In this document: one piece after another, positions 7,447-31,935 of the stretch
Numbering within the stretch: the stretch's first letter is position 1
Layout of the letters: every line of letters starts with the position of its first letter
From: Bacteroidota bacterium
GTDB lineage: Bacteria; Bacteroidota; Bacteroidia; Flavobacteriales; Flavobacteriaceae
Length of the DNA stretch: 33,735 nucleotides
Assembly: GCA_947450355.1 (NCBI GenBank)
Contig: CANFVB010000009.1
Location: forward strand, 1-33,735
Direction: 5' to 3'
Position numbers and translations under genes: made by a program
The notes under the pieces: generated by a model
What the model saw: only the letters and a program-made list of their open reading frames with translations
Database searches by the model: none
Told to the model about the DNA's origin: nothing

Positions 7447-7500
7447 ACCTTATATACTAAATCTAATTTGCTTGTGTTCGGCAGAGGGGCATCCAACAAG

Positions 7501-7673
7501 AAATCGATCGTCGGCAGGTTGGATATTCAGTATCCGAGGAGAAATCAATCATCGGCGGGTCAGATACTCAGTATCCGAGGAGAAAACGATTGTCGGCGGG
7601 TTGGATACTGAGTATCCGAGGAGAAATCAATCGTCGGCAGGTTGGATACTCAGTATCCGAGGAGAAATCAATC
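7501..7673 (+). repeat. 41-bp tandem repeat array 1 (4 full units plus 9 bp)
   Basis: Unit starts at 7501, 7542, 7583, 7624 (partial at 7665), exactly 41 bp apart. Consensus AAATCAATCGTCGGCAGGTTGGATACTCAGTATCCGAGGAG. Confidence 0.95.
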
Positions 7674-7850: not shown

Positions 7851-7944
7851 ATTCAGATTTTTCCATATAACCGAATTAACGATTAACCGAAGAAACCATT
7901 CCCTACTTTGATAAAGTTCTTATGAAAATATAAACGTGAATTGG

Positions 7945-8040
7945 TAGCCCCGATAGAAGCGATATCCCACGCTTTTGGGCGTGGATACAGCGAATAGCGG
8001 GTAGAATCGTGAGTTGAAATTGAAAAGTTGTGCTCCTAAA
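7945..8040 (-). repeat. TAGCCCyGAT...GCTCCTAAA structured element, copy 1
   Basis: TAGCCCCGATAGAAGCGATATCCCACGCttttggGCGTGGATACAGCGAATAGCGGGTAG...GCTCCTAAA; 24 bp 3' of the dctA-like stop. Confidence 0.65.
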
Positions 8041-18642: not shown

Positions 18643-18662
18643 ATATTTATTCCGGGATTTCA

Positions 18663-18746
18663 TAGCCCTGATTGCAGTGAAAATCCTTTTGGTTTTTTCT
18701 TTAAAAACCAAAAGATTGTAACGGAAAGCAGGAAATAGCTCCTAAA
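18663..18746 (-). repeat. TAGCCCyGAT...GCTCCTAA structured element, copy 3
   Basis: TAGCCCTGATTGCAGTGAAAATC-CTTTTGGTTTTTtctttAAAAACCAAAAG-ATTGTAACGGAAAGCAGGAAATAGCTCCTAAA; ends 2 bp from the stop codon of the 18749 CDS. Confidence 0.8.
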
Positions 18747-29074: not shown

Positions 29075-30088
29075 ATGGCAAAAATAAAGTTAGAGTACAT
29101 TTGGTTGGACGGATACGAGCCAACTCAAAATTTAAGAAGCAAAACTAAAGTTGAAGAACATGCAAATTTTCAAGGAACTTTAGCTGAAATCGGAAATTGG
29201 TCTTTTGATGGATCTTCAACAAAACAAGCCGAAGGCGGATCTTCAGATTGTTTGTTAGTTCCTGTGGCAATCTACCCAGACCCAACTCGCATCAATGGCT
29301 ATTTAGTAATGACCGAAGTTATGAATGCCGATGGTACGCCACACGCTTCAAACGGTAGAGCAACTATTGACGATGATGGTGATTTTTGGTTCGGATTTGA
29401 GCAAGAATATTTCATCATGGACACCAAAACTTTATTGCCATTAGGATTTCCAATTGGCGGTTACCCAGCGCCACAAGGAATGTACTACTGCTCAGTAGGT
29501 GGAAAAAATACTCACGGAAGAGCTTTAGTTGAAGAACACGCAGATTTATGTATCGAAGCTGGAATCAACTTTGAAGGAATTAATCAAGAAGTAGCTTGCG
29601 GACAATGGGAATTCCAATTGTTTGCTCAAGGTGCTAAAAAAGCAGGTGACGAAATTTGGGTTGCCCGTTATTTATTAGATCGTTTAACCGAAAAATACGG
29701 TTACTATATAGAATACCACCCAAAACCATTGGGAGATACCGATTGGAATGGTTCAGGAATGCACGCTAATTTCTCTAACGAAGTTTTGAGAACGTGTGGA
29801 GACCAAGCAACATACGAAAAAATATGTGAAGCGTTCCGTCCTGTAACTGCAGAACACATTGCGGTTTATGGAGCTTATAATGACCAACGTTTAACAGGAA
29901 AACACGAAACTGCATCGATTCACGATTTCTCTTATGGGGTTTCAGACAGAGGATGTTCGATCCGTATTCCGTTAATGACCGTTCAAAAAGGTTGGAAAGG
30001 TTGGTTAGAAGACAGACGTCCAGCATCAAATGGCGATCCTTACAAAATTGCTGCACGAATTGTAAAAACTGTAAAATCAGTTCTATAA
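29075..30088 (+). CDS. glnA: Glutamine synthetase type II (eukaryotic-like GSII, short form)
   Basis: 337 aa; AEIGNWSFDGSSTKQAEGGSSDCLLVPVAIYPDP, GFEQEYFIMD, GQWEFQLF, DWNGSGMHANFSN. Confidence 0.94.
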   Translation: MAKIKLEYIWLDGYEPTQNLRSKTKVEEHANFQGTLAEIGNWSFDGSSTKQAEGGSSDCLLVPVAIYPDPTRINGYLVMTEVMNADGTPHASNGRATIDDDGDFWFGFEQEYFIMDTKTLLPLGFPIGGYPAPQGMYYCSVGGKNTHGRALVEEHADLCIEAGINFEGINQEVACGQWEFQLFAQGAKKAGDEIWVARYLLDRLTEKYGYYIEYHPKPLGDTDWNGSGMHANFSNEVLRTCGDQATYEKICEAFRPVTAEHIAVYGAYNDQRLTGKHETASIHDFSYGVSDRGCSIRIPLMTVQKGWKGWLEDRRPASNGDPYKIAARIVKTVKSVL

Positions 30089-30117
30089 TACACGCTGCTA
30101 AACAACTACAACAATCA

Positions 30118-30150
30118 AAAGTGCTTTCAGAAATGAAGGCACTTTTTTTT
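30118..30150 (+). terminator. Rho-independent terminator after glnA
   Basis: AAGTGCTTTCA-gaa-ATGAAGGCACTT followed by a T tract. Confidence 0.8.
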
Positions 30151-30286
30151 ATATAGCCATTCCACATAATATTTATACATTGGAACTCCTACAAAAACGA
30201 GAACAAAATCTGATACTGTTGTGATTTTTTTTTCCGTTGCGAGTTCTCCCTTCTGGGATTAAGGGGTTGGTGTCTCGGCTAAAGAG

Positions 30287-30778
30287 AAATCAATCGTCGG
30301 CAGGTTGGATACTCAGTATCCGAGAAGAAAACAGTTGTCGGCAGGTCGGATACTCAATATCCGAGGAGAAAACGATCGTCGGCGAGCTAGATACTCAGTA
30401 TCCGACCAGAAATCAATCGTCGGCGGGTTGGATACTCAGTATCCGACCAGAAAACAGTTGTCGGCAGCTCGGATACTCAGTATCCGACCAGAAATCAATC
30501 ATCTAAAGGTCAGGTGCTTAGTATCCGAAGAGGAATCAATCATCTGCGGGTTGGATACTCAGTATCCTAGGAGAAAACGATTGTCGGCGTGTTGGCTGAG
30601 GGTCATCCGACCAGAAAACGGTCGTCGGCAGCTCGGATGAGGGTCATCCGAACAGAAATCAGTCGTCGGCAGCTCGGATGAGGGTCATCCGACCAGAAAT
30701 CAATCGTCGGCAGTTCGGATGAGGGTCATCCGAACAGAAAACGGTCGTCGGCAGGTTGGATGACCCTTTTCTGAACTC
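30287..30778 (+). repeat. 41-bp tandem repeat array 2 (12 units, no indels, two dyad-core classes)
   Basis: Unit starts 30287, 30328, 30369, 30410, 30451, 30492, 30533, 30574, 30615, 30656, 30697, 30738, all spaced 41 bp. Cores GGATACTCAGTATCC (most of units 1-7) and GGATGAGGGTCATCC (units 8-11, variants included); unit 12 diverged. Confidence 0.96.
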
Positions 30779-30823
30779 AAACAAATAAATTTGAAAAAGG
30801 CTTTTTCGATTTATAAAAATTAG

Positions 30824-30894: not shown

Positions 30895-31935
30895 CTACTC
30901 TACTACTTCGTGGGATTTCGAGTAATTGCGCCATTTTTCAATACAATCCTGCATATCTTGTGGCAATTCGGTATCAAAACGCAGCATTTCGCCCGTAGTA
31001 GGATGAACAAACCCTAAAGTCTTGGCGTGCAAGGCTTGACGCGGCAAAACCTTGAAACAATTGTCAATAAATTGTTTGTATTTTGTAAAAGTAGTTCCCT
31101 TCAAAATTAAATTTCCACCATAACGCTCATCGTTAAAAATAGGATGTCCAATGTGTTTCATGTGCACACGAATTTGGTGCGTACGTCCTGTTTCTAATAT
31201 ACAAGAAACCAACGTTACATAGCCAAAACGCTCCAAAACTTTATAATGCGTAACGGCGTGTTTTCCAATGGTAGGATCTTCAAAAACCGACATTTGCATT
31301 CTGTCTTTTACGTGTCGTGCAATATTTCCTTCAATCGTGCCTTCATCTTCTTTGACAGTTCCCCAAACCATAGCAACATATTCTCTTTCGGAAGTTTTAG
31401 CTTCAAATTGCTTTGCGAGGTGCGTCATTGCCGCTTCGGTTTTTGCAATTACTAAAAGTCCTGTGGTATCTTTATCAATTCGATGCACCAATCCTGGTCG
31501 TTCGCTGCTATTCATTGGCAAATTCTCAAAATGATACGCCAACGCATTCACTAAAGTTCCCGTGTAATTTCCGTGTCCCGGATGCACTACAAAACCTGCT
31601 GGTTTGTTAATGAGCAACAACGTATCGTCTTCATAAACTATATCAAGCGGAATATTTTCTGGGTCAACACGGTTTTCAAACGGTGGATGTGTCAGCATAA
31701 TCCGAACAATATCCAAAGGTTTTACTCTGTAATTTGATTTTACGGGAACATCATTCACATAAATATCGCCAGCTGTAGCGGCATTCTGAATTTTATTTCG
31801 AGTCGCATTTGGAATCAAATTCATCAAAAACTTATCAATCCTTAAAAGCAATTGCCCTTTAGGAACATCAAATCTAAAATGCTCAAATAATTCCTCTTCA
31901 ATCTCGTCAATCTCTGTATTCTGATTATTGTCCAT
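30895..31935 (-). CDS. rluD: RluA-family (RluD-type) pseudouridine synthase
   Basis: 346 aa; S4 domain then INKPAGFVVHPGHGNYTGTLVNAL, LVHRIDKDTTGLLVIAKT, TGRTHQIRVHMKHIGHPI. Confidence 0.94.
   Translation of the reverse strand: MDNNQNTEIDEIEEELFEHFRFDVPKGQLLLRIDKFLMNLIPNATRNKIQNAATAGDIYVNDVPVKSNYRVKPLDIVRIMLTHPPFENRVDPENIPLDIVYEDDTLLLINKPAGFVVHPGHGNYTGTLVNALAYHFENLPMNSSERPGLVHRIDKDTTGLLVIAKTEAAMTHLAKQFEAKTSEREYVAMVWGTVKEDEGTIEGNIARHVKDRMQMSVFEDPTIGKHAVTHYKVLERFGYVTLVSCILETGRTHQIRVHMKHIGHPIFNDERYGGNLILKGTTFTKYKQFIDNCFKVLPRQALHAKTLGFVHPTTGEMLRFDTELPQDMQDCIEKWRNYSKSHEVVE

Follow-up and report, generated by a model that had tools for sequence, protein, structure and literature searches.

Tandem repeat arrays of constant 41–42 bp period associated with DUF6261 genes in Bacteroidota

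The stretch of DNA analyzed here (the window, 33,735 nucleotides from a member of the Flavobacteriaceae) carries between glnA and rluD a tandem array in which the length of the repeated unit is kept while its bases change. The question is what holds the length. An earlier note on this DNA proposed that the phasing of the array is selected, either through a protein bound at about every fourth helical turn or through a repeating chain of RNA hairpins. The array is not alone. A second one lies in the window (Table 1), its 41-bp unit recurs in about ten more arrays elsewhere in the genome, which is Flavobacterium-like (G000), and arrays of the same period stand upstream of the genes of one protein family.

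Table 1. The two arrays of the window and the features next to the glnA–rluD array.
Feature	Coordinates	Strand	Basis or remark
Second array, four full A-units, 3' end lost	7499..7673	+	TRF; 41-bp unit as in the glnA–rluD array
glnA (glutamine synthetase), upstream neighbor, outside the system	29075..30088	+	Pfam
Intrinsic terminator of glnA (hairpin)	30117..30146	+	
Seven A-units	30285..30571	+	41 bp each; dyad core GATACTSAGTATC
Four B-units	30572..30735	+	41 bp each; core TGAGGGTCATCC
Terminal C-unit	30736..30776	+	GGATGACCCTTTTCTGAAC
Conserved 36-bp tail	30777..30812	+	TCAAACAAATAAATTTGAAAAAGGCTTTTTCGATTT; also after the C-unit at other arrays
rluD-like pseudouridine synthase, convergent neighbor, outside the system	30895..31935	-	Pfam

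Organization and turnover of the arrays

The glnA–rluD array consists of 12 units at exact 41-bp steps from 30285 to 30776, for which TRF reports a period of 41 bp, 11.6 copies and 0% indels. The number of units and the step are as first described, but the array starts two bases to the left of the 30287 given before. The units had been taken for a single type drifting in sequence, with the divergence spread along the unit, and neither description holds. There are three types, A (units 1–7), B (8–11) and C (12), and the GGTTGGATGACCCT of the C-unit is close to what the B core reads as its reverse complement. Among 78 A-units from this genome and from a relative, G014, variation falls mostly at about 11 positions (6, 8, 11, 18, 21, 22, 23, 30, 37, 40 and 41), which behave as two-state mosaics, and next to none is seen in the dyad core GATACT-S-AGTATC. 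The self-complementarity, claimed before as a dyad in the repeat, is real: folding z of the array is about −9.4 and −9.6 on the two strands relative to dinucleotide shuffles.

Two other kinds of element were seen in the window. An Rfam scan of it returned only two Flavo-1 RNAs (RF01705, at 7942–8008 and 18660–18739), neither within the array; one is about 270 bp past the array at 7499. A 27-bp dispersed inverted repeat, AATCTGAAATAAATTCAGATTGACAAA, has five copies (6919, 7157, 7364, 7813 and 30824), which flank both arrays where none would be expected by chance.

The array does lie, as the note had placed it, between the terminator of glnA and the convergent 3' end of rluD, and arrays L021 and L028 are also found between convergent 3' ends. 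This would suit a terminator or a transcription insulator between convergent genes. We consider that role highly improbable, given that glnA has a terminator of its own, that other arrays are upstream of or between co-directional genes, and that the gene-linked arrays described below are upstream of promoters. The glnA–rluD setting is incidental. The array there is one among many dispersed copies, and the array tied to a gene sits elsewhere, upstream of the gene for a DUF6261 protein.

The genome is a draft of 226 contigs, several of which end within arrays. Where the 3' end is intact, the arrays mostly run from A-units through B-units to a single C-unit; in one exception, a B-unit stands among the A-units. 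A C-unit terminates L021, L022, L025, L026, L029, L030, L065, L066 and L067 in this genome and G014, and is absent from L027, L028 and the array at 7499. At most of the arrays in this genome with an intact 3' end, the C-unit is followed by the 36-bp tail, which in L026, L029 and L030 is tandemly repeated two to three times. Strict unit length holds throughout the glnA–rluD array but not everywhere: there is a single 40-bp step in this genome (in L026), all others being 41 bp, and a few 38- and 40-bp steps interrupt the 41-bp period in G256, another genome of the genus. The arrays of G256 keep the A core and the order of A before B; the spacer and the B core differ.

Further elements recur near some of these arrays. 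A GC-rich dispersed element (GGGCGTGCCCC...CCGCTGCTATCC...) often precedes them, as in the 5' flanks of L021, L066, L064 and L069, and occurs in this genome, G014 and G256. At L022:2623-4002, at a distance of about 670 bp from an array of two units, we read by eye a protein start resembling Cas9 (MTKILGLDLGTNSIGWAIVEN), which is an isolated case.

Three orthologous sites can be compared with G014. The glnA–rluD site there (L067) has 3–4 units, of types B and C only, in place of 12. The second window site has 9 units (L065, eight A-units and a C-unit) in place of the 4 at 7499, and a third site has 16 in place of 9. Since the counts differ at all three, unit number turns over while the step stays fixed. 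One of the findings that the note had said would count against it, presence as polymorphic VNTRs, is borne out as far as unit number goes, yet the period does not vary with that number. The markers CTAAAGGTCAG and TCTGCGGGT occur in units 6–7 of the glnA–rluD array and otherwise only in units 7–8 of the array that is linked to DUF6261 on contig C201. These shared marker units indicate copying between arrays, in one direction or the other. Copied DUF6261 promoter sequence is found in two places before some other gene or its remnant: after a solo A-unit at L025:1655, and trailing the G014 glnA array (L067, after 3189).

Linkage of the arrays to DUF6261 genes

A spaced-dyad pattern, which has fixed spacing built into it and is not alone evidence of a constant period, finds arrays in 7 of 400 genomes of the genus with several matches in each; the reversed pattern gives single matches only. 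The spacers are different in each of the seven. In five of them, one array is immediately upstream of a gene of about 250 aa belonging to DUF6261 (PF19775), and a sixth (G395) also has a DUF6261 gene, for a total of 6/7. The family is rare in the genus as a whole, being present in 4 of 150 sampled genomes. The genome of the window has a single DUF6261 gene, with its linked array on contig C201 (L027/L102). G014, an 88% complete MAG, has arrays and no match to DUF6261.

The relationship also holds when approached from the gene. PF19775 genes were picked regardless of repeats from the genus, from the phylum and from one DUF6261-rich family of genomes, giving 91 ORFs that take in four array-led genes (G256, G304, G306 and G420) and one split locus counted as two ORFs. 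When 60 lags were compared in the 600 bp upstream, the strongest was 41 (32 ORFs) or 42 (45 ORFs) in 77 of the 91, where about 3 are expected. All 61 cases with at least 40 matches of 60 are at lag 41 or 42; 14 of the 91 ORFs are without the period upstream. The downstream flanks of the same genes have no 41/42-bp peak, and among 68 other ORFs serving as a control there are 3 with an upstream lag of 41 or 42, none strong. One family of genomes supplies most of the 91, and the presence of the signal in 11 of 15 protein clusters formed at 45% identity answers the question of kinship only partly. Three further loci examined blind gave lags of 42, 41 and 43, and a fecal contig filed as phage that carries DUF6261 gave 41.

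The unit sequences upstream of these genes are unrelated, which bears out, on a much wider scale, the claim that length is kept while bases change. In ten DUF6261 genomes tested, each has its own repeat sequence, and most have copies of it elsewhere (for example, at three more sites in G756); G824 and G092 have no dispersed copies.

It is conceivable that the length persists solely through the copying of units from one another by unequal recombination, in which case the arrays are neutral satellites and their linkage to DUF6261 is hitch-hiking. The unit numbers at orthologous sites vary as such an account would have it, and the mosaic units imply constant homogenization. We nevertheless find it very unlikely, for arrays of unrelated sequence in different genera share 41–42 bp upstream of DUF6261. 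Since the same period recurs with unrelated sequences across genera, local copying cannot set it independently.

The median distance from the end of a gene-linked array to the ATG is about 78 bp. At 23 of 62 loci, an exact box TANNTTTG, the Bacteroidota promoter element, is found between the array and the gene, compared to 4.6 in shuffles. The array is therefore often upstream of the promoter, and this favors an action at the level of DNA. The same result weakens the chain of RNA hairpins offered in the note. Under that explanation, the arrays would be transcribed, and DUF6261 would bind or process the hairpin chain. Self-complementarity is strong on both strands of the window array, and it is common across the arrays, again on both strands, with a mean z of −2.7 versus −0.86 in flanking DNA; moreover, transcription of the 52-bp tandem repeats in Bacillus coagulans has been reported (PMC8161180). 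However, at many loci, the box leaves the array outside the leader of that mRNA, the self-complementarity is no stronger on one strand than on the other, and RNA hairpins do not require units set exactly four helical turns apart. We think a role as RNA quite doubtful. The dyad was also considered as a defining feature and rejected, because the consensus dyad is significant in no more than 18 of the 76 arrays linked to a gene. A dyad spacing of half a unit (20.5 bp) is suggestive in some units.

The DUF6261 protein and what it may do

The sequence of DUF6261 gives few hints of function. It has no recognizable DNA-binding domain in Pfam or NCBIfam and no match to transposase, nuclease or HUH families. 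The median pI is 7.8, the C-terminus is not basic, and there is no membrane segment. Against solved structures, there were weak profile matches only, the best (E 0.019) to ALIX protein, which we do not trust. A search of the open-access literature, with most subscription journals outside its scope, located no functional study of the family, and the link to the arrays is the first lead on it.

A viral origin was entertained and set aside, since IMG/VR has neither a match to the array pattern nor a DUF6261 relative, and the only "phage" record with a relative, MT837725.1, resembles by eye a fragment of a Bacteroidota chromosome. That record (L185, 6.3 kb, "Bacteriophage sp.") has ORFs resembling a vsr endonuclease, a methylase, an HU-like protein and DUF6261.

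The reading we prefer starts from the linkage, which holds both from array to gene (5/7 and 6/7 versus 4/150) and from gene to array (77/91). A length of 41–42 bp is four turns of the helix, and protein binding at every fourth turn is our best guess for what is selected. DUF6261, or a complex containing it, would bind the units as DNA. The units would then all face the same side of the helix, which would place length under selection and leave the sequence needing only to co-evolve with the protein. The array linked to the gene would serve the autoregulation of DUF6261. Further copies would be extra loading sites, or by-products, and would spread by recombination between arrays. We give about an even chance to this reading as a whole, under which the glnA–rluD array would be one of the dispersed copies of the repeat cognate to the genome's single DUF6261 gene, with units that serve DUF6261 or a partner as phased binding sites like those predicted upstream of the DUF6261 promoter.

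More generally, DUF6261 and the arrays point to a protein-plus-repeat system that has not been described. With somewhat less than even confidence, we suggest that its two parts are a small soluble protein, polymerizing or loading on phased arrays, and the 41–42-bp arrays themselves, which DUF6261 would maintain and spread. If the cell benefits, the role might be in organizing the nucleoid, in regulation or in genome defense.

The arrangement might instead be RAYT/REPIN-like. DUF6261 would act, or once have acted, as an enzyme copying or moving the units, the arrays being non-autonomous elements and the upstream array one that is kept beside the enzyme gene. Single-copy RAYT genes replicate REPINs (PMC8049555). 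In the present case, the gene is rare and adjoins its own repeat, copies particular to each genome are scattered through intergenic DNA, the arrays have a polarity with their 3' end and tail conserved, and marker units are exchanged between arrays. Yet the protein lacks any transposase, nuclease or HUH match, the copies are few (0 to about 12), neither target-site duplications nor empty sites have been established, and transposition does not require a fixed period of 41–42 bp. We regard such an enzyme as unlikely. A RAYT or other Y1 transposase acting as the partner was rejected: this genome has three Y1 matches, two of them above the cut-off, and all are on contigs without array matches (the Y1 genes being on C15 and C52).

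Comparison with known repeat systems

The arrays are not CRISPRs, as had been said at the outset. There are no identical repeats alternating with unique spacers, every column of the 41-bp unit being repeated, and the linked gene is DUF6261 rather than cas. With ordinary VNTRs they have copy-number polymorphism in common, but they also have a link to a gene family and a period that is fixed across taxa.

The iterons of Rep and the parS sites of ParB are tandem or repeated sites adjoining the gene for their cognate binding protein. The present arrays are alike in having repeated DNA sites in helical phase beside the gene of a protein predicted to bind them. They differ in that DUF6261 has no replication or partition signature and no match in plasmid records by tblastn.

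REPINs and RAYTs (PMC8049555, PMC8266576) also consist of palindromic intergenic repeats that are genome-specific and dispersed, with a single partner gene. Here, dispersed cognate intergenic repeats are likewise found, but they are direct tandem arrays of fixed period at few sites, and the linked gene encodes PF19775 instead of a Y1 (HUH) transposase. The dispersed non-coding satellites of Leptospira interrogans (PMC6749651) are similar in that a single genome carries related tandem arrays in many of its intergenic regions; the parts of that account consulted report neither a period fixed across species nor a linked gene.

The nearest likeness is to the bacterial tandem repeats of constant size and variable sequence described by Subirana and Messeguer (PMC8161180), who found only lengths of 20–21 and 52 nt and proposed protein binding or small RNA without an identified partner. 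Those repeats and ours are non-coding, of constant length and species-specific in sequence, with several arrays per genome, a unit number that varies between strains and units that are partly self-complementary. Ours differ in being 41–42 bp long, in occurring in Bacteroidota and in being tied to the DUF6261 family; our literature search, short of most subscription journals, turned up no paper on arrays of this length in Bacteroidota. Constant length with unrelated sequence is found at 41/42 bp in 77 of the 91 ORFs, and the length is outside the two published sizes, which makes the 41–42-bp arrays a variant rather than members of those classes. Repeats of this kind have been called enigmatic because they have no known reader. 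Because those described here go with a single gene family, what selects their length can be put to the test with ordinary genetics and binding assays.
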